A DNA stretch of 64,000 bases from an uncultured Gammaproteobacteria bacterium (GTDB lineage: Bacteria > Pseudomonadota > Gammaproteobacteria > Pseudomonadales > Pseudohongiellaceae). Position numbers and translations under genes: made by a program. Below the pieces are notes generated by a model that saw only the letters and a program-made list of their open reading frames with translations, ran no database searches and was not told where the DNA came from. Positions 5,612-38,387 of the stretch are shown here, in pieces. Where the stretch lies: the NCBI GenBank assembly GCA_913031035.1, contig CAJWGN010000003.1, positions 1-64,000 of the forward strand, read 5' to 3'. Position 1 is the first letter of the stretch. Each line of letters begins with the position of its first letter.

Positions 5612-7111
5612 ATGCAAGAACCAACCGCTCCATTTTGTTTTAGCAACAGTTACGCTGAAGAACTGCTAGATTTCTACGTCGAGTGTCAGCCGATGGCTGT
5701 TCAGGAGCCAGAACTGCTGCAATTCAACGCCTCACTCGCCACCGAACTTGGATTAGGTCTAGAGGCGCTGGTCTCACAGGACTTGGCTCAGGTTTTCTCG
5801 GGACAGACATTGCTGGATGGCTCTCGCCCGCTCGCACAAGCCTATGCTGGGCATCAGTTTGGCGGATTCTCCCCTCAGTTGGGTGACGGACGCGGCTTGC
5901 TGTTGGGTGAGGTGGCAGGGTCCAATGGAGATCGCAGGGACATTGCTTTAAAAGGTTCCGGGCCGACGGCGTTTTCTCGCGGCGGCGACGGTAAGGCGGC
6001 GGTTGGAGCGGTACTGCGTGAATACCTGATCGGGGAGGCAATGCACTGTCTTGGTATTCCGACCACGCGTGCCTTGGCGGCGGTTGCCACAGGCGAATTA
6101 GTGTATCGCGAGCGACCTTTGCCCGGGGCGATCCTTACTCGCGTCGCTGCCAGCCATATTCGCGTTGGAACATTTCAGTTTTTTGCAGCACGGCAGCGAT
6201 GGGATCAGGTTCGTCAGTTGGCCAACTATGCTATCGAGCGGCACGATCCGCAGATCAGTGCCGACAACGATAATGATCCCGACCGTTATCTAGCGCTCCT
6301 GCAAGAGGTCTCCGAACGTCAAGCCGCTTTGATCGCGAATTGGATGCTGGTTGGGTTCATTCACGGTGTTATGAACACCGACAACATGGCTATCTCTGGT
6401 GAGACGATTGACTATGGTCCTTGCGCTTACATGGAATCTTTTAGCCCGGATGCAGTATTCAGTTCGATTGATCAACAAGGGCGCTACGCCTATAAAAATC
6501 AGCCGCAGATAGCTCAGTGGAATTTGACTCGATTGGCCGAGACATTGCTTCCGTTGATTGATGAAGACGATCCTGAGGGCGCCGTCCCGAAAGTGGAAGC
6601 GATCCTGAACGATTTTATACCTCACTATGAAAAGCTATGGTTAGCTGGTGCGCAAAACAAACTAGGATTAGAAAACCCCAGTTCGGATATCGACGGCGAC
6701 AAGTTGCTGGTGAAGGATTGGCTGAATTTGCTGAAGGTGCACTCGGTTGACTACACGCTGGCGTGGCGAAGGCTTGCGGACGCCGCTGATGGTAATTTGC
6801 AAAAACTTGAAGCGTTGTTTCCTGCCGGAGATATACTCGCTGACTGGCTAGCTCGCTGGCATCAAAGGACTGCCCAGCAGTCTGCATCGGACACGGCTGA
6901 GAGAATGCGTTCGGTTAACCCAATCTACATCCCGCGTAACCATTTGGTAGAAGAAGCTTTAGATGCAGCATCTGAGGGTGACTTGGCGCCATTCGAGGAA
7001 TTGCTTGCGGTGCTTAAAACTCCCTTTGAAGAGAGGCCAACGCTTTCGCGCTACGCGACACCGGCGCCTAAAGAGTTTATGGACCAGTATGAGACATTCT
7101 GCGGCACTTAG
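5612..7111 (+). CDS. selO: Protein adenylyltransferase SelO (YdiU family)
   Basis: A 499-residue pseudokinase-fold enzyme that transfers AMP from ATP to Ser, Thr or Tyr of target proteins, known in E. coli for redox-linked AMPylation. Visible motifs are AGHQFGGFSPQLGDGR near residues 79-94, the nucleotide-binding Lys in ALKGSG at about 114, the Glu in LREYLIGEA, and the metal/catalytic segments MNTDNM and DYGPC. A C-terminal Cys (FCGT end) occupies the region of the selenocysteine in eukaryotic homologues. The ATG at 5612 is preceded by AAGGAACAAGGA. Length is close to that of the E. coli protein. The gene stands alone, convergent with the suf operon. Confidence 0.95.
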   Translation: MQEPTAPFCFSNSYAEELLDFYVECQPMAVQEPELLQFNASLATELGLGLEALVSQDLAQVFSGQTLLDGSRPLAQAYAGHQFGGFSPQLGDGRGLLLGEVAGSNGDRRDIALKGSGPTAFSRGGDGKAAVGAVLREYLIGEAMHCLGIPTTRALAAVATGELVYRERPLPGAILTRVAASHIRVGTFQFFAARQRWDQVRQLANYAIERHDPQISADNDNDPDRYLALLQEVSERQAALIANWMLVGFIHGVMNTDNMAISGETIDYGPCAYMESFSPDAVFSSIDQQGRYAYKNQPQIAQWNLTRLAETLLPLIDEDDPEGAVPKVEAILNDFIPHYEKLWLAGAQNKLGLENPSSDIDGDKLLVKDWLNLLKVHSVDYTLAWRRLADAADGNLQKLEALFPAGDILADWLARWHQRTAQQSASDTAERMRSVNPIYIPRNHLVEEALDAASEGDLAPFEELLAVLKTPFEERPTLSRYATPAPKEFMDQYETFCGT

Positions 7112-7356
7112 TTTTAAGGGGTAGTACGGAGTTTTAAGCAGTCTCGAACGGCCTCAATTTTCGGGATTGGGGTATGCGGAAAAAGACAACCATTAGGGCT
7201 TTCGTGTTTGCTAGTTGCTGATATGATTAAAGGTAGTAGCCGCTGTATTGCGTGAGAGTAGTTGGACGAGAGTCAGTAGGTGGTCGGTGGTCGAGCAATT
7301 GCTCCGACATCTTGGAGCCTTACAGCATAGTCATTTTCTGCCAGGATGTTGGACCG

Positions 7357-7809
7357 TTAAGCCGCTTGCGCAGTTGCTAGTTTTTGGATCTTACTGATCA
7401 TCGAGCGCAGGCCGTTACCGCGCGTTGGTGAAATATGGCGGAACAAATCTAGCCGTTCAAATAGCTTGTCAATATCCGTTGCCAGCAAATCTGCTGGTGT
7501 GCGGTTGTTCAGCGCCACTAGAATAATCGCTGCTAGTCCGCGCACAATGATGGCGTCGGAATCGATCAACAGAAGAAGTTTACCGCTGTCTTTGTCGTAA
7601 TGGTGGATTAGCCACACCTGGCTCTGGCAGCCGTGAACATAGTTTACTTCTGTGCGCTGGGATTCTGGAAACGGCGGCAACTGCTTGCCCAGATCAATTA
7701 TAAAGGCGTAGCGGTCTTCCCAGTCGTCGAGAAACTCAAAGGCGTCGAAGACATCTTCCAATGTGGTGCTGGTACCCAGCGAGTTGTTGTTAAAATCACT
7801 GGCGTTCAT
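7357..7809 (-). CDS. sufE: Cysteine desulfuration protein SufE
   Basis: SufE accepts persulfide sulfur from SufS and passes it to the SufBCD scaffold. The persulfide Cys is at about residue 61 in VNYVHGCQSQVW, the family signature. The start is taken at the ATG at 7809, giving 150 residues. That start overlaps the sufT stop by one base (TAATG), so the two are probably translationally coupled; the longer upstream frame lies inside sufT. It is the last gene of the minus-strand suf operon. Confidence 0.95.
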   Translation of the reverse strand: MNASDFNNNSLGTSTTLEDVFDAFEFLDDWEDRYAFIIDLGKQLPPFPESQRTEVNYVHGCQSQVWLIHHYDKDSGKLLLLIDSDAIIVRGLAAIILVALNNRTPADLLATDIDKLFERLDLFRHISPTRGNGLRSMISKIQKLATAQAA

Positions 7810-8351
7810 TAAATCATTCCTAGTTCCAGTTTGGCTTCGTCGGAGAGCATGTCTTTGCTCCACAGTGGATCAAAGGTTATTTCTACGGTAACTTTGTCTA
7901 CATTGGGTACGTGTTCTAGCTTAGTTTTTACGTCCATGGCAATCACCGGGCCCATGCCGCAGCCGGCGGCTGTAAGGGTCATGGTAATTTCAACGTGGTT
8001 GCCCACTTCGGGATCTTTCTCTATCTTACAGCTGTAAATCAGGCCCATTTCTACCACGCTGACGGGGATTTCTGGGTCGTAGCAGTTGCCCATGGCTTCC
8101 CACAGCTGATCTTCGTTGACTGAGCCGTCGTCTGTAGCTTCAAAGCTACTGACCTGTGGCTCTTTTCCTAAAGCATCGGCGTCGTAGCCTTCAATGCGCG
8201 CCATATTGCCGTTTACCGCTACGGTATAGGTGCCACCTAGCGACTGGGTGATGCTAATGAAGGAATTCGCCGGAATCATGATTTCCGTACCTGATGGCAC
8301 AAGGAGTGCTTCTACCTCGCGTGTGGTTACTACAACTTCCCGTTCTTCCAT
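7809..8351 (-). CDS. sufT: Fe-S maturation factor SufT (MIP18/DUF59 family)
   Basis: A 180-residue protein with an N-terminal extension (about residues 1-95) followed by a MIP18-like domain with YDPEIPVSVVEMGLIYSCKIE. A Cys in GCGMGPVIAMDVK further on is typical. SufT helps deliver Fe-S clusters to client proteins under high demand. It starts 11 bases after sufA and overlaps sufE by one base, in the common sufA-sufT-sufE order. Confidence 0.92.
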   Translation of the reverse strand: MEEREVVVTTREVEALLVPSGTEIMIPANSFISITQSLGGTYTVAVNGNMARIEGYDADALGKEPQVSSFEATDDGSVNEDQLWEAMGNCYDPEIPVSVVEMGLIYSCKIEKDPEVGNHVEITMTLTAAGCGMGPVIAMDVKTKLEHVPNVDKVTVEITFDPLWSKDMLSDEAKLELGMI

Positions 8352-25732: not shown

Positions 25733-25769
25733 AACTGACTTAACCCAACTGACTTAACCCAACTGATTA
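25733..25769. repeat. Tandem 14-bp repeat between convergent genes
   Basis: Two exact copies of AACTGACTTAACCC (25733-25746 and 25747-25760) and a partial third (25761-25769). The third runs into the stop codon of cobO, so the array marks the junction of the two convergent genes. Confidence 0.85.
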
Positions 25770-26375
25770 GTAGTCGATTCCTTTCTGAACTTTGACTCCA
25801 TCATAAAACGCATGCTTAGATTCACCTAATTCGGTAACCGTGTCGGCAATTTCAATAAGTTCTTTTGAGGCACTGCGACCGGTAACGATAACGTGCTGCA
25901 TCGGAGGGCGGTTTTCTAATGCGCTAATCACCATCTCCTTGTCGAGATAGCCATAGGTGAGCATGTAAGTGAGCTCATCCAGCAAAACTACGTCAACATC
26001 CTTATTGTTCAATAGCTCAGCTGCTTTTTCCCATGTAGCCACCGCGGCAGCAATGTCTGCCTCACGGTCTTGGGTCTCCCAGGTGAAGCCAGTGTTCATG
26101 ACATGAAATTCAACCTGTGGGTGATCTTGAAACAAAAGATGCTCGCCGGTTTCCCACACGCCCTTAATGAATTGAATGACTCCGCAGCGTAAGCCGTGAC
26201 CAACGCTGCGGGCCAGCATGCCAAATGCAGAAGAACTTTTACCCTTACCGTTCCCGGTGAGGACTATCATAAGACCCTTATCAATAGTTGCTTGTGCAAT
26301 TTTGCCATCGATATGGGCTTTTTTACGTTCCATTGCTTTCTTATGACGTTCGTTTCTATCATTCTGCTTTGACAC
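25767..26375 (-). CDS. cobO: Cob(I)yrinic acid a,c-diamide adenosyltransferase, copy 1
   Basis: A 202-residue CobO/BtuR-type corrinoid adenosyltransferase that attaches the 5'-deoxyadenosyl ligand from ATP to Co(I). The P-loop is TGNGKGKSSSAFG (about residues 40-52), with FTWETQD and VVLLDELTYML following. It starts at a GTG with GGAG six bases upstream. It lies 40 bases after btuB on the same strand and so probably shares the cobalamin riboswitch. A second copy begins the opposite operon. Confidence 0.94.
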   Translation of the reverse strand: MSKQNDRNERHKKAMERKKAHIDGKIAQATIDKGLMIVLTGNGKGKSSSAFGMLARSVGHGLRCGVIQFIKGVWETGEHLLFQDHPQVEFHVMNTGFTWETQDREADIAAAVATWEKAAELLNNKDVDVVLLDELTYMLTYGYLDKEMVISALENRPPMQHVIVTGRSASKELIEIADTVTELGESKHAFYDGVKVQKGIDY

Positions 26376-26414: not shown

Positions 26415-28268
26415 TTAGAAATTTAATCGAAGACCTACATAAGAGCTTCTGTCTGCTGAATTATAATCAAATATTTCTTGGTATTCTTCATCCAGAAAAT
26501 TCTCAATTCTAGCGTAGACTTCTATTGTTTCATTAATCTTGAAATTTGCATTTATATCCAACACGCCAAAGTTTTCCAAGGACACCACTCCACCTCTAAT
26601 CTCATCAATGGAGTCTTCTGAGGTGCGGTAGAACGCGTTAAAAGATAAGCGCTCATCTGTGCTCTTGTAGGAGACGCCAATATTGGTCAAGGCTTCAGGT
26701 CGACGTCTGCGTTGTAGGCCGTTGGGGCGTTCGGTGTCATTGTAAGTGTAATTGGCGTTTAGATTCCAATTACTATTAAGTGCAAAGTTGCCAGACAGTT
26801 CAACACCTTTAGACGTGCTAGTGCCGATATCTTGCAGGTAGCCGCTGAAACCCGCGATGTCAAAAACTATGGCATCTTCGATCTTTTGATCAAAGTAAAC
26901 AGCTTCCAATTTAAGGCGTGTCCCGGCATAGTATTCAACACCAATCTCAAAGCCTTGGCTATTTTCTTCTTTAAGCGTTACCAGCGAGGCCGGAGGAGAC
27001 GAAAATGCGCCTGCGTTATACGCAACTTCGGCGGGTGCTGGTGCTCGAAAACCCGTTCCGAAACTCGATTTGAATTTAATCGTATCGGTGGAGTTAAGCT
27101 CCATCAAATAAGCGCCGGTTACTCGGTAGCTTGTGTGTTCACCGAACTCGTCGTTGTCATCTTGACGCACACCGGCAGTGAAAAACAGTGTTTCCGAAAA
27201 CTTGCTAAGGGCCTCAACGTAAAAGCCCTTATTATCGCGAGTCGCATTATTGTTGCTTTCTTCTTCTAGATCTACACCAAACACAAGGTCGAGTTGTTCA
27301 AGGCTCTTAAGTTGGCCGACGTATTCCCAGCGCTCTAATTCGCCAAGTGCGGTAAAAGACGAAACACCAAGGGCAAGATTGTCTCGATCACTTTCTGTAT
27401 TGGAATATGCCAAGGAATGACTCATAGATTCGGTAGAGTAAACTGCGCCGAGTCGGGTGGCTTGTAATTCAGAGATCGAATTACAGTCGTGAACTGTGCC
27501 GCCGGAGAAACAGCCGTCAAATTGTGCGTTGGCATCTACGTCACGATGCACTAAGTCGATTCTCAAATTCTCTGAGACGTTGAGACCGAATCGGGCGTGA
27601 ATAGTGTCGTTATCGTAGCCGTCGTCATCCATTAAAACATTGTCTGAATCTCGGGTATTAAAGCCGTCAACCTCTAAAGTGCTAGCAGCTATAAAAAAGT
27701 CGACTGTGTCGTTGCCGCCGCTTATATCGCCTGAAACTTGAGTTGTTCCAAAGCTACCCGATTGCATGTCTATGTTGCCGTCAAGCCCTTTACTGCCGCG
27801 GCTTGAGGTGATGTTGATAACTCCACCTGCGTCGGCGCCGAAGCTCAATCCCTGTGGTCCGCGGAGTATTTCAACTCGGTCTATACCTGAGCTCACGACA
27901 TGTTGAAGCTGAGGGCCAACTTGAGTGCCGCTGGGGTCAGCAAGCTTCAAGCCATCAAAGCGTAAAAGGGTTCTAAATCCTTCTTCACCACGAATACGTA
28001 AAGAGGTCGCAGCGCCTATGCCGCCATTGCGAGAGACGCTGACCGCAGGAAGTTGACGAATAATGTCAGTAAGAGATTGATTGCCGCGTGCGGTGATTTC
28101 TTCTTTTGTTAAGATTGATACAGAAGTGCCAACTTGCTTGACAGGTACCGGTATGCGGTTAGCGACGACGATGATTTCTTCTAATGGGTCGGTCGATTGT
28201 GCAAGTGCGTTGTGGCTCAACAGCAATGCCGCTGCCACTGTAGAAAGGGTAAAAGGTAAGCTTTTCAT
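26415..28268 (-). CDS. btuB: TonB-dependent vitamin B12 receptor BtuB
   Basis: A 617-residue outer-membrane receptor. It has a signal peptide ending HNALAQ, the TonB box EEIIVVANR, a plug domain with VEILRGPQGLSFGADAGGVINI, a 22-strand-type barrel and a terminal aromatic residue (VGLRLNF). The identification as BtuB rests on a barrel length and plug like E. coli BtuB and on the cobalamin riboswitch directly upstream. The start is the ATG at 28268 with GGGA six bases before; a TTG four codons earlier is also open. Confidence 0.92.
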   Translation of the reverse strand: MKSLPFTLSTVAAALLLSHNALAQSTDPLEEIIVVANRIPVPVKQVGTSVSILTKEEITARGNQSLTDIIRQLPAVSVSRNGGIGAATSLRIRGEEGFRTLLRFDGLKLADPSGTQVGPQLQHVVSSGIDRVEILRGPQGLSFGADAGGVINITSSRGSKGLDGNIDMQSGSFGTTQVSGDISGGNDTVDFFIAASTLEVDGFNTRDSDNVLMDDDGYDNDTIHARFGLNVSENLRIDLVHRDVDANAQFDGCFSGGTVHDCNSISELQATRLGAVYSTESMSHSLAYSNTESDRDNLALGVSSFTALGELERWEYVGQLKSLEQLDLVFGVDLEEESNNNATRDNKGFYVEALSKFSETLFFTAGVRQDDNDEFGEHTSYRVTGAYLMELNSTDTIKFKSSFGTGFRAPAPAEVAYNAGAFSSPPASLVTLKEENSQGFEIGVEYYAGTRLKLEAVYFDQKIEDAIVFDIAGFSGYLQDIGTSTSKGVELSGNFALNSNWNLNANYTYNDTERPNGLQRRRRPEALTNIGVSYKSTDERLSFNAFYRTSEDSIDEIRGGVVSLENFGVLDINANFKINETIEVYARIENFLDEEYQEIFDYNSADRSSYVGLRLNF

Positions 28269-28374
28269 TTTAGTTCCCAATGAATCTGCGGGCCTAATCG
28301 CTAATGCGAAGGCTAATAAGTTTCAGGTTCAGTAGGGAGGGAATAGGCAGGAGAATCCTGATAACAAGATTCCT

Positions 28375-28540
28375 CCACTGATGTAGCCCTCCGCTGCATC
28401 TGGTAGTGACTTTATGTAGGCTGGTATCGGACTTGCTTTTGAAACCCGTATCGAGGTTTCAGCGGCTTACCGTTGCGGGGGCAGTGTTGGATTTACACCA
28501 ACTTCCCAATTAAGTCAGCCGACCTAGCGCTGGCACCTAA
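28375..28540 (-). ncRNA. Cobalamin riboswitch upstream of btuB
   Basis: On the minus strand the hallmark elements appear in order: GGTGCC near 28539, GGGAAGTTGGTGTAAATCC, the almost invariant CTGCCCCCGCAACGGTAA, and AGTCCGATACCAGCC. A hairpin with arms GGAGGAATC and GATTCTCC follows at about 28377-28349. It should lower btuB-cobO expression when adenosylcobalamin is plentiful. Confidence 0.93.
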
Positions 28541-28685
28541 TAAAGAATGTTCGTATCAGAGCACCAAGATGGTCTGGTTCGGACAGCGAGGAGTCTATAG
28601 ACAAGCATTTGGTGAGTCAATTGACATCTATAGACTGGATCTTTGACAGTTCGAAGGACTAGTCTCTATAATCACCACAGTTTTA

Positions 28686-28900
28686 GGTGCCTGTATGATG
28701 GTTGAAATCAGTACAGGGTAAACGGGAACGCAGGTGATATTGAGCTTTACGGCTCACAAATCCTGGGCTGCCCCCGCAACGGTAACTTCTCATGGCATTT
28801 GTCATTGGAATAAGCCCGACACCGGCCTGAGCTATGTGATTCTCATATCTTGCAGCAATGCGTCTGAGTATCGCTCGGTAATAAGCGGAGGGCTTATCTG
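28686..28900 (+). ncRNA. Cobalamin riboswitch upstream of the cob operon
   Basis: The plus-strand elements are GGTGCC at 28686, a GGGAACGCAGGTG-like segment, GGCTGCCCCCGCAACGGTAA near 28770, and AAGCCCGACACCGGCC. A possible expression-platform hairpin ATAAGC/GCTTAT lies near 28880-28897. It is oriented towards the ten-gene plus-strand operon starting at 29032 and is divergent from the btuB riboswitch, with about 145 bases between the two. Confidence 0.93.
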
Positions 28901-29031
28901 AATCGATCAAGGAATAGTCTTTTCCTGATTTTTTCTCATCCCTTCTTTCAAATCATTGGCCAGAGCTCTCAGCTTATGGGTTTTGCCGATAGTTTCCCCT
29001 GCTTTTCTAGTACTGCGATGGACTGAAAAAA

Positions 29032-29622
29032 ATGGCTAGCCACAAAGAAAAAATGCAAAAACAGAAAGAAAAGGTGGACGCAAACATCGCCAAAGCGGAA
29101 ATCGACCGCGGCACTGTTTTATTGCTCACAGGCAATGGCAAAGGTAAAAGTAGTTCTGCCTTTGGTATGGTGCTGCGCTGTTTAGGACACGGCTATAGGG
29201 TTGGTATTGCACAGTTTATTAAGGGCACTTATTTCACTGGCGAGAAAGAATTTTTAGCACCCATGACCGATATGATTGAATTTCATCAAATGGGTACTGG
29301 TTTTACCTGGGAGACACAGGATAAATCTCAAGATATTGAAGCGGCCAAAAAACTCTGGGTCATCGTTGAAAAGATGCTTAAAGATGAATCGCTCTATTTG
29401 GTTGTTCTCGACGAGCTTACCTATATGATCGCTTATAACTACCTCGATGAAGACGTGATTATCGATGCGATTAGAAATCGCCCGGAGTCACAAAGCGTGG
29501 TTATTACCGGACGTGGTGGTGGTGCAGCCCTCAAAGATTTCGCAGATACTGTATCCGAAATAAAAGCAATAAAACATGCCTACCAAGCTGGCATTAAGAT
29601 GCGCAATGGGATTGACCTTTGA
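29032..29622 (+). CDS. cobO: Cob(I)yrinic acid a,c-diamide adenosyltransferase, copy 2
   Basis: A 196-residue paralogue of the CobO on the other side of the riboswitch pair. The P-loop TGNGKGKSSSAFG, GTGFTWETQD and VVLDELTYMI are all intact. The two proteins differ at many positions, so this is not a recent exact duplication. It is first in the plus-strand operon, 28 bases before cobQ. The ATG at 29032 follows an A-rich stretch without a good ribosome site. Confidence 0.93.
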   Translation: MASHKEKMQKQKEKVDANIAKAEIDRGTVLLLTGNGKGKSSSAFGMVLRCLGHGYRVGIAQFIKGTYFTGEKEFLAPMTDMIEFHQMGTGFTWETQDKSQDIEAAKKLWVIVEKMLKDESLYLVVLDELTYMIAYNYLDEDVIIDAIRNRPESQSVVITGRGGGAALKDFADTVSEIKAIKHAYQAGIKMRNGIDL

Positions 29623-29650: not shown

Positions 29651-31174
29651 ATGCCTAGCGTAACTTTAATGGTACAAGGTACGACCTCGGATGCAGGGAA
29701 ATCTGTATTGGTAGCTGGTCTTTGCCGATTGCTCGCACGCAGGCAAGTTAAGGTCGCGCCGTTTAAGCCTCAAAACATGGCGCTTAATAGCGCGGTTACG
29801 ATCGAAGGTGGCGAAATAGGTAGAGCGCAAGCGGTGCAGGCCCAAGCCTGTTTCCTGGAGCCGCGCAATGATATGAATCCGATTTTGATTAAGCCCGAAG
29901 CGGATAGCTTCGCCCAGATTATTGTGCTTGGGCAGGTTCTAGAAACCATGGATGCCCAGTCATACCATGCTTATAAGAAGACCGCGCTAAGCTTTGTTCT
30001 GGAATCTCACGTCAGATTGGAAAAAGAATTTGAATTCATTGTCGTTGAAGGCGCTGGCAGTCCGGCTGAGATAAACCTACGGGCAAATGACATAGCCAAT
30101 ATGGGTTTCGCAGAGGCTGTTGATTGCCCTGTGGTTTTAATAGCGGATATTGACCGTGGCGGTGTTTTCGCGACAGTAGTGGGAACTCTCGAACTACTAT
30201 CCGAATCTGAGCGCGGCCGCGTCTGCGGTATTGTCATTAACCGGTTTCGCGGTGATATTAAATTACTTGAATCAGGTCTACGCTGGCTGGAGGATAAAGT
30301 GGGCAAGCCAGTTATAGGGGTTTTGCCGTACTTGAAAGAATTTTACCTAGATGCAGAAGATGCAATTAACGCAAAGCAGCTATTAGACCTAGAGGTTTCT
30401 CATCTAAAAGTCGCGGTTATCGTTTTTCCGAGAATCAGCAACCACACAGATTTTGATCCGCTTCGTTTGCACCCTCAGGTTGACCTTACTTATCTGTCAC
30501 CTGCGGATAGAATCCCTGAGTGTGACTTGCTTATTTTACCTGGTTCGAAAAGTGTTAGATCGGATTTGGCCCTATTGGTTAAAAACGGAGGTGCAGACAA
30601 TATTGCTCGTCATTTGCGCTACGGCGGAAAGCTGTTAGGTATCTGTGGTGGTTTTCAAATGTTGGGCGAGGGTATTGATGATAGCAACGGCGTCGAAAGC
30701 GTGTCCGGCATTTCTGAAGGTCTAGGATTTTTGGAAATGAAGACTATCCTCAAGCCCAGCAAGCAATTGCGGCAGCGTGAGGGCACATTGAGTTTTAGCA
30801 AAGCCCGTGCGGTCGGTTATGAAATCCACTGCGGTGAATCTAGTGGCCCAGCTTTAAATCAGCCATTTATTCGATTTGTAGACGGTTCATCTGACGGGGC
30901 TCTAAGCGGTGATGGTCAGATCATTGGGACCTATTTGCACGGTCTTTTTGATGACCCTGCCTCAGCAAAGGCGTTGCTTTCATGGGCGGGTCTCGACAGC
31001 TTGCACCGGGTCGACGTGGCAGAAATACGGGAACAACAGTTGGAACGTCTCGCTGATGCTTTAGAGGAGCACGTCGAGGTGGAAAAGCTTTTTCCAGCGG
31101 TATTTAATCGAACCGAGCTAGAAGAAAAATTCACCCAAAGCGGCAGAACAAGGCAGGTCCCTTGGAGAGAATAA
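29651..31174 (+). CDS. cobQ: Cobyric acid synthase
   Basis: A 507-residue glutamine-dependent amidotransferase that amidates side chains b, d, e and g of adenosylcobyrinate a,c-diamide. The N-terminal ATP domain has [19 protein letters not shown] and [13 protein letters not shown]. The C-terminal glutaminase-like domain has the nucleophile in [14 protein letters not shown] and the His in [10 protein letters not shown]. Also called cbiP. Its last 13 bases overlap the btuC start. Confidence 0.96.
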
Positions 31175-32208
31175 ACCATCGATCGGTTATCTTTTTTTTG
31201 CTGTGCGTGCTGCCACTGATAGTGTTGGTGTACTTGTCTGTAGGGCCTAGTTGGATTCCTCCATGGCGTATATTCTCGCTGCTAGGCGATACTGTGAATG
31301 TTGATTCGACGGTGATTCGTGAAGCCACGATTGTTAGCGCCATTCGTTTGCCTAGAGTGTTAATGGCTGCCTTTGTTGGGGCCTGCCTTGCATGCTGTGG
31401 AGCGGCGATGCAGGGACTTTTTAGGAATCCGCTTGCCGATCCCTCGCTAATTGGTGTGTCTAGTGGTGCCTCAGCCGGAGCCAGTTTTATGATTGTTTTT
31501 GGCGCAGCCTGGCTAGATAGTAGCCAAGTACTCGGCCTGTCTATGGTAAGTGTCGGTGCTGTAGCCGGCGCGGTGGTGGCTGTATTTCTAGTCTACAAGT
31601 TGGCTACCGATAGCTACGGTACATCGGTAATAACAATGCTCTTATCTGGTGTCGCGATCAGCGCCGTGGCAAGTGCGCTGAATAGCATGTTTAGCTATTT
31701 TGCCGATAGCGAAATGCTACGAAGAATAAACGTTTGGGAGATGGGAAACTTAGATGGCGCCAGCTGGGAGCGGGTGGCTCTCATTGCTGTTGTTGCCGGT
31801 GTCTTACTGTGGCGTTTGCCTAGGCACGCTTTGGCGTTAAATGCATTTCTACTCGGCGAGTCCGAAGCGCGGTACCTTGGGATCAATGTTGATTGGGTTA
31901 AAAAGGAACTAGTTTTACTAACCGCCCTTGCTGTCGGGATTAGCGTTGTGATTTCTGGAAACATTGCTTTTGTAGGGCTCGTGGTTCCTCACATCTTGCG
32001 TGGCTTTATCGGCCCAGATCATCGCTACTTATTGCCAAGCTGTGCCTTGGCAGGCGCGATGCTGCTGATAGTGGCCGATATGATTGCGAGAACAATTATT
32101 GCCCCGGCAGAGCTTCCCGCTGGAATTTTGACTTCACTGGTGGGTGCCCCAGTTTTCTTTTATTTGCTGGTAAAAAGTAAATCGCTTAATAACCCTGAGC
32201 GGCTTTAA
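31162..32208 (+). CDS. btuC: Cobalamin ABC transporter permease BtuC (FecCD family)
   Basis: A 348-residue multi-spanning permease with [23 protein letters not shown], the FecCD-family signature, and the cytoplasmic loop LGINV that contacts the ATPase. [23 protein letters not shown] is also typical. Assignment to B12 rather than siderophore or haem rests on the operon. The TTG start at 31162 overlaps cobQ. Confidence 0.9.
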
Positions 32209-32228
32209 GGCACGGTAAAAATATTCCA

Positions 32229-33002
32229 ATGACACTTAAAATTCATAACGTAACAGCTAAAATTAGCTCCGCCATATCGCTTGTTGATATTGAGGTTGAG
32301 GTTGAGGCAGGCAGTGTCACTGTCGTTATTGGCCCCAACGGAGCTGGCAAGACTAGCTTGTTGAGAGCTATTTGCAGTGACCTACCTTTTAGCGAAGGGG
32401 TGATTACGTTAAACGACAAAGTTATTTCTCAGTGGGATGCCCAGTCCAAGGCCACGCTACTGGCTATATTGCCCCAACGATCTTCTCTCGAATTTCCTTT
32501 CACTGTTGAGGAAGTCGTAACCATGGGGAGAATTCCTCATAGCACTTCCAATAGTCAGAATCGTGACATCGTCAACAAGGCTTTGGCGCTGGTGGATTGT
32601 AATCATCTTATTGCTCGCTCATTTATTAATCTGTCCGGTGGCGAGAAACAGCGAGTGCAACTTGCTCGGGTGGCTGCTCAGGTTTGGGATGCAGTCGATG
32701 CCGGTGATCGCTGCCTCATCTTAGATGAACCAACCGCTTCATTGGATCTCGCTCATCAGGAAATGGTTGTTCGGATGTTCGAGTTTTTCGCAGCACAGGG
32801 TGTCGCTATATTAGTTGTATTGCATGACTTAAATTTAGCAGCTAAATGCGCCAGTCAAATTTTAGTACTCAAGGATGGTCGCAGTGCAGCATTAGGTAAA
32901 CCTGAAACGGTTTTGACTGAGGAAATGCTGAAAGATGTTTTTAGTATTTCAGCTAAAGTGATAAGCAATCCAGTGAACGGTAAACCAATGGTGGTGACAT
33001 GA
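32229..33002 (+). CDS. btuD: Cobalamin ABC transporter ATPase BtuD
   Basis: A 257-residue ATPase with Walker A GPNGAGKTS (about residues 35-43), signature LSGGEKQRVQLARV and Walker B RCLILDEPTASLDLAHQ. It resembles HmuV/FecE/BtuD-type importer ATPases. Its stop overlaps the cobU start by four bases (ATGA). Confidence 0.9.
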   Translation: MTLKIHNVTAKISSAISLVDIEVEVEAGSVTVVIGPNGAGKTSLLRAICSDLPFSEGVITLNDKVISQWDAQSKATLLAILPQRSSLEFPFTVEEVVTMGRIPHSTSNSQNRDIVNKALALVDCNHLIARSFINLSGGEKQRVQLARVAAQVWDAVDAGDRCLILDEPTASLDLAHQEMVVRMFEFFAAQGVAILVVLHDLNLAAKCASQILVLKDGRSAALGKPETVLTEEMLKDVFSISAKVISNPVNGKPMVVT

Positions 33003-33580
33003 ATAAGCCGCCAAAATCTTTAACCAACCTACATTTTATTTTAGGTGGTGCTCGTTCCGGTAAAAGCCGTTTAGCGTTGGCAAGCGCTCAACAGATTGCA
33101 AGCAGCAGCGGTGCATCGCTTGTTTTCATTGCCACAGCGACTGCAAATGATGAAGAGATGCGCAAACGTATCGAAAAACATCAGGCTGAAAGGGTTTCCA
33201 CTAACGGTGAAAACCCCTGGGCTCTTGTAGAGGAGCCATTACATCTAGCCAGATCACTGCTTCAAAACGATGGCAAGGGAAAAGTAATAGTAGTGGACTG
33301 TTTGACGCTTTGGATAAGCAACTGCCTTCATCACAATGTATGGGATAAACACCAAGACGAGCTGTTGAATTGCCTAGAGCAGTTGAAATGTGAGGTGATT
33401 TTTGTCAGCAATGAAACTGGCCTAGGTATCGTACCGATGGGCGAACTGACAAGGCAATATGTTGATGCCAGTGGGTTTTTTCACCAGCGTATGGCTCAGC
33501 ATTGCGCCCATGTCATTTTTACCGTCGCGGGCTTGCCCCATATTCTAAAAGATGAACGACAGTTAAAAGACAGTGTGTAA
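32999..33580 (+). CDS. cobU: Adenosylcobinamide kinase/guanylyltransferase
   Basis: A 193-residue bifunctional enzyme phosphorylating adenosylcobinamide and then forming adenosylcobinamide-GDP. The P-loop is GGARSGKSRLAL (about residues 16-27). VVDCLTLWISNCL and VSNETGLGIVPMGELTRQYVDASG are family motifs. It is translationally coupled to btuD. Confidence 0.95.
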   Translation: MNKPPKSLTNLHFILGGARSGKSRLALASAQQIASSSGASLVFIATATANDEEMRKRIEKHQAERVSTNGENPWALVEEPLHLARSLLQNDGKGKVIVVDCLTLWISNCLHHNVWDKHQDELLNCLEQLKCEVIFVSNETGLGIVPMGELTRQYVDASGFFHQRMAQHCAHVIFTVAGLPHILKDERQLKDSV

Positions 33581-33620
33581 GCCAGTCAGACTGCAATTGT
33601 ACTTTTAGATTAGGAAACAC

Positions 33621-34658
33621 ATGACTAAGCGTTGGTACCACAAAAAAACCAAGACAATCGACAGCGAAGCAATTACTGGCGCATTGGTTAGGCAGGCAGC
33701 CCTTACCAAGCCAGCAGGATCACTTGGTCGCTTAGAGGAGATCGGCGTCAATTTTTCTGGTTGGCAAAGCACCGAAAAACCGTCTTTGGATAGAGTTCAA
33801 ATTGCTGTGTTCGCAGCAGACCACGGCATTGCCGAGGCAGGCGTTTCTGCTTTTCCGCAGCAGGTGACGGTGGAGATGGTGAAAAATTTCGCTCATGGCG
33901 GCGCTGCAATTTCAGTTCTGGCGAAGCAGTGGGGTGCACGTTTTTCTATTATAAATATGGGTACAGTTTTTCCTTGTGAGGAGTTGCCCGGGCTTATTTC
34001 TAGCCCCGTTGCAGCGGGCACTCATAATTTCGCCAAGCAAGCTGCGATGTCATCCGCCCAGCTTGAGCAAGCCTTGCTCCGCGGTTCCGAGGCTGTATTG
34101 GATGACAGCCAGATATTTATTGGTGGAGAGATGGGCATAGCTAACACCACGTCGGCGGCCGCTCTGGGCTGTGCGTATCTTGGTCTGGTCGCCGTCCAGC
34201 TTACCGGTCGTGGCACAGGTATTGATGATGCAGTGTTGCACCATAAAATAAAATTAATAGATTCAGCTCTGGATCTGCATAAAGAGGTTGCAACCACTGC
34301 CTTTGAAAAGCTTCGCTGTTTTGGTGGTTTTGAGATAGCGGCGCTAGCAGGTGCCTACATTGCCTGTGCCCAAAAAGGTGTGCCGGTGCTGGTTGATGGT
34401 TTTATTAGTACCGCAGCGGCAGTGGCAGCAGTGTCTCTGAATTCCGGCGTTCGCGATTGGATGCTATTTAGCCATTATTCGCAAGAGTCTGGTCACAGGC
34501 ATCTGCTAGGTTTTTTGGATGCCAGCCCTTTGCTAGATTTTCAAATGCGGTTAGGCGAAGGCAGTGGTGCGGCACTTTGCGTGCCGCTACTTCAGTCGGC
34601 GTGTTTACTACAGTCCGAAATGGCTACCTTTGGGGAAGCCGCAGTGAGGGTAAACTAG
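33621..34658 (+). CDS. cobT: Nicotinate-nucleotide--dimethylbenzimidazole phosphoribosyltransferase
   Basis: A 345-residue enzyme activating the lower-ligand base to alpha-ribazole phosphate. TKPAGSLGRLEE near residue 32, FAADHGI, GEMGIANTTSAAA and the catalytic Glu in RLGEGSGAAL near the end are all present. AGGAAACAC precedes the ATG. No bluB for making dimethylbenzimidazole is visible in the window. Confidence 0.96.
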   Translation: MTKRWYHKKTKTIDSEAITGALVRQAALTKPAGSLGRLEEIGVNFSGWQSTEKPSLDRVQIAVFAADHGIAEAGVSAFPQQVTVEMVKNFAHGGAAISVLAKQWGARFSIINMGTVFPCEELPGLISSPVAAGTHNFAKQAAMSSAQLEQALLRGSEAVLDDSQIFIGGEMGIANTTSAAALGCAYLGLVAVQLTGRGTGIDDAVLHHKIKLIDSALDLHKEVATTAFEKLRCFGGFEIAALAGAYIACAQKGVPVLVDGFISTAAAVAAVSLNSGVRDWMLFSHYSQESGHRHLLGFLDASPLLDFQMRLGEGSGAALCVPLLQSACLLQSEMATFGEAAVRVN

Positions 34659-34661
34659 CGT

Positions 34662-35462
34662 ATGAATGACAGTGATGAACAAGTAGGGTCTGCCAAGAGC
34701 GAAAAGCTCAATGCATGGGGCCGAGCCTATGAGTCACTGCGCACGGCTTTAGGCTTCTTAACTCAAATTCCCGTTGGTAGTGATGTGCGCTTCGATGATG
34801 ATTCTATTCGCTATTCAATTCTTTTTTATCCTGTTATTGGTTTGCTGTTAGGCATTGTCATTTACTTCGCTGCCAGCTTAATGCCGTTCACCTTGATTTT
34901 AAACTCGGCACTGATCATATGCTTGTTAGTCGTGCTAACTGGCGGGCTTCATCTCGACGGCCTAGCCGATTGCACAGATGCTTGGTTTGGGGGGATGGGC
35001 GATAAAGTAAGAACTCTCGAGATCATGAAAGATTCCCATAGTGGGGCCATGGCTGCCGTGTCAGTGTCGATGTTTCTCATTGTTAAAACAGCAGCGGTTT
35101 ATGAAGTGCTCGAAGCTGAGCAATTTGCACTGTTGATTTTGGCGCCAGTACTTTCCCGCCTTTCCGTGCTTGGCTTGTTTATATCTACTCCCTACATTGG
35201 CCTCGGGCCAATCGGCAAAGCAATCTCCACATCTAACCCCACCCATCTTTATGTGACATTGATTGCAACTGTTGTGCTGTGTTTCTTCGTGATTCCAGAG
35301 GGAGGGTTAATTCTGCTGTTGGTACTCGTTTTTGGACTTGCCTTGCTGCTTCGAAAACTTATGCTAGCCCGCTTGCAAGGGTTTACTGGAGACTGTGCCG
35401 GTGCTCAAATTGAATTGCTCGAAGCTTTTGTATTAATTGGTGGCAGTCTTGTGGTGTCTTAA
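34662..35462 (+). CDS. cobS: Adenosylcobinamide-GDP ribazoletransferase (cobalamin synthase)
   Basis: A 266-residue inner-membrane enzyme joining adenosylcobinamide-GDP to alpha-ribazole or its phosphate. LGFLTQIPVG at the N-terminus, GGLHLDGLADCTDAWFGG and the multiple hydrophobic segments are characteristic. It starts three bases after cobT. Confidence 0.94.
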   Translation: MNDSDEQVGSAKSEKLNAWGRAYESLRTALGFLTQIPVGSDVRFDDDSIRYSILFYPVIGLLLGIVIYFAASLMPFTLILNSALIICLLVVLTGGLHLDGLADCTDAWFGGMGDKVRTLEIMKDSHSGAMAAVSVSMFLIVKTAAVYEVLEAEQFALLILAPVLSRLSVLGLFISTPYIGLGPIGKAISTSNPTHLYVTLIATVVLCFFVIPEGGLILLLVLVFGLALLLRKLMLARLQGFTGDCAGAQIELLEAFVLIGGSLVVS

Positions 35463-35463
35463 T

Positions 35464-36417
35464 TTGGAATCAGCGGGGGTGGCGATGGCTTTTGCTCTTG
35501 CCATCGATTATTTGTTTGGTGAGCCTAAGCGGCTCCATCCCCTCGTTGGGTTTGGCGCTATAGCAAGCTGGATAGAATCCGTCCTTAATGGAAAATCGGC
35601 AGTGAAAAGTTCCAGCGTTTCCAGATTAAATGGCGCTCTTGGCTGGATATTATTGTGTATTCCGTTGCCGATAATTTTAGCCAGCGTTCTTATTAAACTC
35701 TCGTCATCATGGGCTTTCTTGCTATCCGTATTCAGTCTGTATCTTTGTATCGCGCCTAACAGTCTTGCTAAACATGCCTATGCAATCGAGGGTAGCCTTG
35801 CGAAAAATGATATTGAAAAGTCGCGAGTAGCACTGGGCGCAATTGTGAGCCGTGATTGTGGGGAATTAGATTCCAAGCAAATTGCGGCGGGATCAGTCGA
35901 ATCTGTATTAGAGAATGGCAGCGATGCAGTGATAGCACCGCTTTTTTGGTATTTTCTATTCGGTGCTCCGGGCGTTGTATTCTACCGATTAGCGAACACT
36001 CTCGATGCTATGTGGGGCTATAGAACTAAGCGTTTCAATAACTTTGGCTTCGCTGCGGCCAAACTGGACGACCTTTTAAATTGGGTGCCTGCTCGTTGTT
36101 GTGCCTTTCTCTATGGTGCAGGGGGCAATTTCTTAAAAGCCATAGGGTGTTGGCAAAGCCAAGCTAAGCATTGGTCAAGCCCAAATGCAGGCCCAGTAAT
36201 GGCAAGTGGAGCGGGTGCCCTAAACTTAGTCATCGGAGGCCGCGCTTCTTATCATGGGCAAGAAGAGTCACGCCCAGTTTTAGGAGTTGGAGAAATACCC
36301 GATACAGGGGATATTCGGCGTAGTGTGAATTTGGTTAACAGGGCAACGGCCTATTTTGTTTCAGTAATTTTACTTTGGGAGCTAGGCCTTTGTTATCTCG
36401 CCACGGTGGCAATCTAG
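35464..36417 (+). CDS. cbiB: Adenosylcobinamide-phosphate synthase CbiB
   Basis: An about 317-residue membrane protein that links (R)-1-aminopropan-2-ol phosphate to adenosylcobyric acid. DYLFGEPKRLHPLVGFG near the N-terminus and ALGAIVSRDCGELDSKQIAAGSVESVLEN are signatures. The start is uncertain: TTG 35464, just after the cobS stop, fits the usual N-terminal length; TTG 35437 inside cobS and ATG 35485 are alternatives. Also called cobD in aerobic-pathway naming. Confidence 0.9.
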   Translation: MESAGVAMAFALAIDYLFGEPKRLHPLVGFGAIASWIESVLNGKSAVKSSSVSRLNGALGWILLCIPLPIILASVLIKLSSSWAFLLSVFSLYLCIAPNSLAKHAYAIEGSLAKNDIEKSRVALGAIVSRDCGELDSKQIAAGSVESVLENGSDAVIAPLFWYFLFGAPGVVFYRLANTLDAMWGYRTKRFNNFGFAAAKLDDLLNWVPARCCAFLYGAGGNFLKAIGCWQSQAKHWSSPNAGPVMASGAGALNLVIGGRASYHGQEESRPVLGVGEIPDTGDIRRSVNLVNRATAYFVSVILLWELGLCYLATVAI

Positions 36418-37448
36418 TCGCGGCTTCTGCGGAATTTGGTATTCCAAAGGAGCGATGGATAGATTTATCTACGGGAATAAGCCCTTGGGTTTGGCCTGTG
36501 TCTGATATCCCTGATGCAGTCTGGCAACGTTTGCCTTGTGAAGATAATGATCTAGAAATTGCTGCGGGGCTTGCCTATGGCTGTGAGCCCAGTGCAGTGC
36601 TTGCTGTGCCGGGTTCGCAATATGCGATTCACAAGATACCCGATATCGTTTCTAGCTTAGTGTCGATATCCGCTTCGACAAACAAAGAGCGCGCAGTGGC
36701 TATACCCACAGTGGGTTACCGGGAGCACAAACTGTCATGGGAATCAGCTGGGTTTGATATTTTGACTTACTCTAGCGAAACTCAGTTACTTGAAATGGTG
36801 AATAAAGAACTGATTCAGTGCGCTGTAGTAATCAACCCAAATAACCCAACAACTCAAACGATGGCTCCGAAAACCCTGTTATTGATCGCTTCTATACTGG
36901 CTGCTCGTCAGGGCTTTCTGATTGTAGATGAAGCCTTTGTCGATGTGAATCCAGAACTCAGTGTTAGCCACTGTTGCCCAGCGCCAGGATTGATAGTGCT
37001 GCGGTCGGTTGGGAAGTTTTTTGGATTGGCTGGTATTCGACTAGGCTTTATTTTGGGTGATCAAGGTTTTCTCGCGAGGATTAAGAGATCCTTGCCTCTG
37101 TGGACAGTCACTACAGTATCGCGGTGGCTGGGAGAACAGGCGCTGTCCGATACTGATTGGCAGTTGAGGCAACGGAGTAGGCTCAGAACACAAAGCGAGG
37201 AGTGGATGGAATTGATAGCGATCCGATATCCCGATTTATCCCTGCAGCTAAACCCTTTGTTCGTCACAGCCGCCTGCGAGCCTAAAGAATCCTTGAGGAT
37301 TTACCAATCACTGGCCAAATTAGGCATATTGGTTCGCTTGTTTACTTTGGAGGAAGGTTTCAGTGGGCTTAGGTTTGGCCTGCCGAGTGAAACTGAATGT
37401 CAGGAATTTGAAAAGAGGTTTAGCGAATCCCCAACCGCATTCGCTTAA
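36375..37448 (+). CDS. cobC: Threonine-phosphate decarboxylase (CobC/CobD-type aminotransferase fold)
   Basis: A 357-residue PLP enzyme making aminopropanol phosphate from threonine phosphate for CbiB. HGGNLVAASAEFGIP and WIDLSTGISP are the usual N-terminal signature. VINPNNPTTQTM and the PLP Lys in VGKFFGLAGIRLGF follow. It starts at a TTG, overlapping cbiB by 43 bases; a TTG at 36390 is an alternative. Confidence 0.9.
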   Translation: MGARPLLSRHGGNLVAASAEFGIPKERWIDLSTGISPWVWPVSDIPDAVWQRLPCEDNDLEIAAGLAYGCEPSAVLAVPGSQYAIHKIPDIVSSLVSISASTNKERAVAIPTVGYREHKLSWESAGFDILTYSSETQLLEMVNKELIQCAVVINPNNPTTQTMAPKTLLLIASILAARQGFLIVDEAFVDVNPELSVSHCCPAPGLIVLRSVGKFFGLAGIRLGFILGDQGFLARIKRSLPLWTVTTVSRWLGEQALSDTDWQLRQRSRLRTQSEEWMELIAIRYPDLSLQLNPLFVTAACEPKESLRIYQSLAKLGILVRLFTLEEGFSGLRFGLPSETECQEFEKRFSESPTAFA

Positions 37449-37457
37449 AGAAGAATT

Positions 37458-38387
37458 ATGATGAGACTAAAAAATATTACTGTGAGAAGGCCTAGAATCT
37501 TTACTGAGCTGAGCAGTTTAAGTTTGTTCTTCGGGCTGTTCCTGCCTGCTTTCGGTGTCGCTCAAATCAGTGTGATTGATGACTTTGGTAATACTGTTAC
37601 TTTACAAGAACCTGCTAAGCGAATAGTCAGCTTGGCACCTCATATTACCGAAACGCTTTATGCGGCAGGCGCCGGCGACAATATAATTGCGACGGTACGT
37701 TACAGTGACTATCCTCCAGCGGCGTTAGATATTCCGATCATTGGATCTTACAAAGAGGTGTCTTATGAGTCGTTGCTCAGCATGAATCCAGATTTAGTGA
37801 TTGTATGGGCTAGTGGCAACGGAGATGAGATCACCGCGAGAATCAAAAGTTTGGGCCTTACTGTTTTTCTGGATGAGCCGCGAGAATTAGAAGACATTGC
37901 GTCTTCACTGCGCCGGTTTGGCAAGCTTACCGGTAACGAAGAGATAGCCGACGCGGAGGCGGATAGTTTCATGAAGAAGCTTGTCGTTCTAAGGCAGGAT
38001 TATAATGAGGATGAAATCCTTGATGTATTCTACCAAGTTTGGAATGACCCGTTGACCACACTGAACGGAGATCATCTTATCTCCAACATTATTCGCCTTT
38101 GCGGCGGACGCAATATCTTTGCAGATGTCATTCCTTTGGCTCCTGTTGTTAACGCTGAATCTGTCCTAACTGCCGACCCTCAAGTTATAGTGGTCAGTGG
38201 TATGGGTAGCGACCGCCCTGAGTGGCTGGATGAATGGAAAGCTTGGCCGGGCTTAGCAGCAAATGATAATGACCAGCTTCACTATATCCCGCCAGACCTA
38301 CTCCAGCGAAATTCACCGAGGGTGATACAAGGCGCCCAACTATTGTGTGAGATACTTTCAAAAGCGAGAACTGTTTACTCTCAGTAA
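37458..38387 (+). CDS. btuF: Periplasmic cobalamin-binding protein BtuF
   Basis: A 309-residue substrate-binding protein with a signal peptide ending GVAQ and a two-lobe class III fold: RIVSLAPHITETLYAAGAGD, YSDYPPAA, ESLLSMNPDLVIVW. It delivers corrinoid to BtuCD. It is the last gene of the riboswitch-controlled operon, ten bases after cobC, with AAGAAG before the ATG. Confidence 0.92.
   Translation: MMRLKNITVRRPRIFTELSSLSLFFGLFLPAFGVAQISVIDDFGNTVTLQEPAKRIVSLAPHITETLYAAGAGDNIIATVRYSDYPPAALDIPIIGSYKEVSYESLLSMNPDLVIVWASGNGDEITARIKSLGLTVFLDEPRELEDIASSLRRFGKLTGNEEIADAEADSFMKKLVVLRQDYNEDEILDVFYQVWNDPLTTLNGDHLISNIIRLCGGRNIFADVIPLAPVVNAESVLTADPQVIVVSGMGSDRPEWLDEWKAWPGLAANDNDQLHYIPPDLLQRNSPRVIQGAQLLCEILSKARTVYSQ

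Follow-up and report, generated by a model that had tools for sequence, protein, structure and literature searches.

Two cobalamin riboswitches back to back between a btuB-cobO operon and a cob/btu operon in an uncultured gammaproteobacterium of the Pseudohongiellaceae

The window, a stretch of 64,000 nucleotides from an uncultured gammaproteobacterium of the family Pseudohongiellaceae, very probably carries two independent full-length cobalamin riboswitches which lie back to back, each forming the 5' leader of a separate transcript, with corrinoid shutting each operon. When corrinoid is plentiful, each aptamer would bind it and its own operon would be turned off. The minus-strand arm would thus control outer-membrane uptake, via btuB-cobO, and the plus-strand arm inner-membrane uptake together with nucleotide-loop salvage.

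A search with Rfam gave exactly two matches at gathering level in the 64-kb window, both to the cobalamin model RF00174 (cut-off 31.5 bits), on opposite strands and facing apart. The aptamer of the btuB-cobO arm occupies 28401-28555 on the minus strand (69.1 bits, E 5.9e-15) and that of the cob/btu operon arm occupies 28669-28844 on the plus strand (60.8 bits, E 1.4e-12), both matching model positions 1-189. Both scores are well above the cut-off, confirming the original prediction of two cobalamin riboswitches back to back; neither arm fell below threshold, the outcome which had been named as counting against the pair. A common ligand for the two arms would follow from their membership of the same family. 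The 5' ends are indeed adjacent, but the distance between them, put at about 145 bases in that prediction, comes to 113 bases when taken from the Rfam bounds. The predicted transcription starts of the two arms, taken from the promoter positions, are ∼93 bases apart. The aptamers differ in length, 155 nt for the minus arm and 176 nt for the plus arm, and in their peripheral stems, as had also been claimed, the differences being in P2 and at P4, where the plus aptamer has an additional hairpin inserted. Elsewhere in the genome, the whole-genome search found a third match resembling a cobalamin riboswitch (L093, G000:C55, 9793-9926, minus strand) with an E. coli-type L5, scoring 24.3 bits and thus below the cut-off. 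It lies upstream of a gene for a 1451-aa secreted CobN-like protein, which is followed by genes for ExbB/TolQ-like and small membrane proteins, all named by reading their translations.

Each arm has a predicted promoter of its own. On the minus strand, TTGACT-17-TAGACT at 28592-28620 agrees with the consensus at 9 of 12 positions and the motif recurs upstream of other riboswitches of the lineage. On the plus strand, a predicted sigma-70 promoter, TTGACA-18-TATAAT at 28643-28672, agrees at all 12 positions and its -10 box touches the plus aptamer. The plus promoter is found at the same place in relatives, with 12/12 agreement in G057 and G052 and 11/12 in G045 and L121. Since a separate, conserved promoter serves each arm, each has its own RNA and coupling between the arms is not implied. 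Thus the single divergent control region proposed originally holds only as regards adjacency. A perfect inverted repeat, AGTCTATAGA at 28592-28601 and TCTATAGACT at 28627-28636, is present between the promoters. It was considered as a shared operator and set aside; the first of its two copies is the -10 region of the minus arm, a conserved promoter motif.

The genes behind each arm are as originally described, btuB-cobO on one side and a ten-gene cob/btu operon on the other. The minus arm is followed by a BtuB-like TonB-dependent receptor (26415-28268, minus strand; TIGR01779, E 2.7e-70, which is below the curated cut-off) and by cobO1 (25767-26375, minus strand), encoding a cob(I)yrinic acid a,c-diamide adenosyltransferase with a TIGR00708 match above cut-off. 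The plus arm is followed by a second adenosyltransferase gene, cobO2 (29032-29622, plus strand; TIGR00708 above cut-off), and then at 29651-38387 on the same strand by cobQ, btuC, btuD, cobU, cobT, cobS, cbiB, cobC and btuF in that order. The last two were named by reading their translations, the cobC-like product reading as an aminotransferase. These ten genes are co-directional with gaps of -43 to +40 bases and therefore likely form one operon. No match to CbiC, of corrin-ring synthesis, was found in the genome, the assembly being 92% complete, and this accords with salvage as opposed to complete synthesis.

For E. coli btuB and Priestia megaterium metE, a repressing mechanism of the kind proposed here for the minus arm is established, in which formation of a kissing loop stabilises P13 and so favours a hairpin hiding the ribosome site (PMC10653944). 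The minus arm would similarly be a translational switch. With ligand bound, L5 would kiss L13 and P13 would be held, so that the strand CCCTCCCTACTGAA could pair with the ribosome site of btuB, while in the ligand-free state the 3' strand of P13 would pair with this sequestering strand instead. The P13/L13 hairpin, GATGCAGCGGAGGGCTACATC, is at 28380-28400, the sequestering (anti-Shine-Dalgarno) strand is at 28328-28341 and the ribosome-site region, TTCATTGGGAA, is at 28274-28284, before the btuB ATG at 28268, all on the minus strand. On both arms the GCGG of L13 is complementary to the CCGC of L5 and kissing is predicted.

Conservation of these elements was examined in an alignment of 18 leaders, 16 being minus-arm in type and the other two belonging to a related, btuB-only type. 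P13 is paired in all 18 and the pairing of the sequestering strand with the ribosome site is conserved in relatives. Together, P13 and the sequestering helix are paired in 94.7% of cells as against 28-48% when the strands are slid by 1-3 columns. Double-changed cells numbered 9 compared to a shuffled mean of 4.8; two other covariation measures, the number of pairs changed on both sides and that of pair types, were not above shuffles in the 18 leaders. Most relatives have all 12 pairs of the sequestering helix, as against 9 of 12 for the window, and the anti-sequestor pairing of the 3' strand of P13 is complete (6/6) in 12 of the 18 leaders, the window having 4/6 in register. Energy folding of the window's minus leader gave the sequestering helix, 28274-28284 with 28328-28341, when L13 was omitted and an alternative fold when L13 was included. 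The conserved helix sequestering the btuB ribosome site is consistent with the known repressing mechanism. A different ligand-free state, in which the GGAGGG of L13 pairs with a downstream CCCTCC, was not supported. This pairing occurs in most leaders, yet against shuffled tails the median p was 0.37 with only 3 of 58 reaching 0.05, and L048, with the variant L13 GGCGGG, still keeps CCCTCC.

The plus arm is probably repressing as well. Its P13/L13 hairpin, ATAAGCGGAGGGCTTAT at 28881-28897 on the plus strand, is kept in 6/6 aligned sequences and its L13, AGCGGAGGGCT, is an exact match to that of the minus arm. Further downstream, at 28905-28930 on the plus strand (28905-28936 by the wider bounds), there is a weak terminator-like hairpin (-6.5 kcal/mol) followed by a T run. 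Of the 66 T6 runs in the window, 15 come with hairpins at least as stable as -6 kcal/mol, and the plus-arm hairpin ranks 12th of these 15; it is therefore not above chance and was discounted as evidence for an intrinsic terminator. The T run is also missing in the aligned relatives. No intrinsic terminator above chance with an antiterminator, and no other convincing platform, was found on the plus arm.

These observations bear on the proposal that the arms differ both in output logic, btuB being controlled at translation and the cob operon by transcriptional termination, and in set point, so that uptake and salvage are turned off at different B12 levels. The sequences downstream of the two aptamers do differ, the hairpin with its T run is found on the plus arm only and the plus-arm promoter is closer to consensus. 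However, a hairpin no better than the chance T-run hairpins of the window, with a T run that relatives lack, makes this proposal rather unlikely. To our knowledge, affinity is not predicted by differences in peripheral stems such as those seen here. In a panel of 38 such riboswitches, swaps of P2 or of the P6 accessory region were inconclusive for selectivity (PMC9600662). If different outputs and set points were nevertheless true, a single intergenic region would stage B12 uptake and salvage at different corrinoid levels.

It is very improbable that one arm is a decayed, non-functional relic. Both window aptamers score lower than many relatives outside the genus and P1 has non-canonical pairs in the Rfam match, but neither arm has lost its core, B12 box, P13/L13 or promoter, and for riboswitches of the genus scores are mostly in the range 42-70 bits.

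Least probable of all is that one riboswitch was recently duplicated in inverted orientation together with cobO: both arms do have cobO and a cobalamin riboswitch, and an inverted repeat (28467-28494/28758-28785) is 86% identical, but this repeat is just the conserved aptamer core, the aptamers as a whole share 51.7% identity and fall in separate clades, each with the corresponding arm of other genomes, which argues against recent local duplication. In the aptamer tree, which was built without one of the two L037 riboswitches, the window's minus arm groups with its counterparts in G045 and L121, and the plus arm lies near the cobQ-type arms. CobO1 and CobO2 are likewise only 51% identical, and CobO2 has its nearest matches in other families of the order (61-64%) while CobO1 is nearest to the genus. 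Thus the plus operon may have gained cobO2 separately.

The two independent riboswitches of the window depart from the usual arrangement in the genus, which is riboswitch-btuB-cobO-btuF adjoining the ribA region. Of the 60 genomes of the genus that were searched, one (G045) gave a divergent pair, a lower bound because the genus-wide filters were stricter, losing weak matches, and several genomes are incomplete. A further pair was found by pattern in L121, a Gammaproteobacteria record (UBA8893). In G057 and G052 a plus-type riboswitch on cobQ is divergent from a cobO without a riboswitch. In G045 (L034, 10473-10712) the cobQ match behind the plus riboswitch is only 240 bases long, which suggests a remnant. 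In L121, btuD and btuF adjoin (6161-7881), while in the window (32229-38387) cobU-cobT-cobS-cbiB-cobC lie between them; this block of genes has therefore been gained or lost there.

The arrangement was also sought more widely by scanning 85,000 genomes for an exact pattern of two back-to-back aptamer cores within one spacing range, 240-300 bases. At least 119 stretches across the alpha-, beta- and gammaproteobacteria match, compared to fewer than 10 expected from base composition (a rough calculation by hand at 65% G+C). Among the 80 matches listed are Pseudomonas, Acinetobacter, Methylophaga, Bradyrhizobium, Ancylobacter, Devosia, Sphingomonas, Rhodobacter relatives, Paraburkholderia and others. 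When 17 loci were checked with Rfam, both arms were above the cut-off in 15, L097 and L166 having one each. In Devosia sp. Root413D1 (L130, 5782-6579) three cobalamin riboswitches occur together, one on the minus strand and two in tandem on the plus strand. Given the number of matching stretches and the proportion with both arms, the arrangement is common and the window adds a further example of it: the pair is real, but its riboswitches are ordinary and the layout is a recurrent one, hence not surprising. Our literature searches gave no paper describing divergent cobalamin riboswitches as a class, and their wide recurrence in proteobacteria is a useful by-product of this analysis. The window itself is a clean instance of what would be B12-responsive control of uptake and salvage from adjoining leaders. 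Paired leaders of this kind lend themselves to asking, in a natural setting, whether two riboswitches that share a cell and its ligand pool differ in set point.

Compared to the RF00174 family in general, the window shares full-length matches on both strands, the L5 GCCCCCGC core, the B12 box, a downstream P13/L13 and cobalamin transport and salvage genes behind the riboswitches, and differs by nothing more than normal variation in P2, the P4 insertion and P6. With E. coli btuB and P. megaterium metE (PMC10653944) it has in common an L5-L13 kissing loop, here predicted, and a P13 strand able to compete with a sequestering or terminator stem, although the sequences differ and the scheme for the window is predicted from alignment only. 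The closest parallels are the divergent pairs of L121, Methylophaga (L134, L158 and L173), NORP60 (L170), Pseudomonas, Ancylobacter, Bradyrhizobium and Devosia, in which two cores lie back to back with a spacing of 240-300 bases as in the window. L121, L158 and L170 also have btuB on one side and a cob/btu operon on the other. The gene sets of each arm vary among the pairs. The plus operon of the window has cobO2 ahead of cobQ and cobU-T-S-cbiB-cobC inside, which the stretch of L121 that was read lacks.
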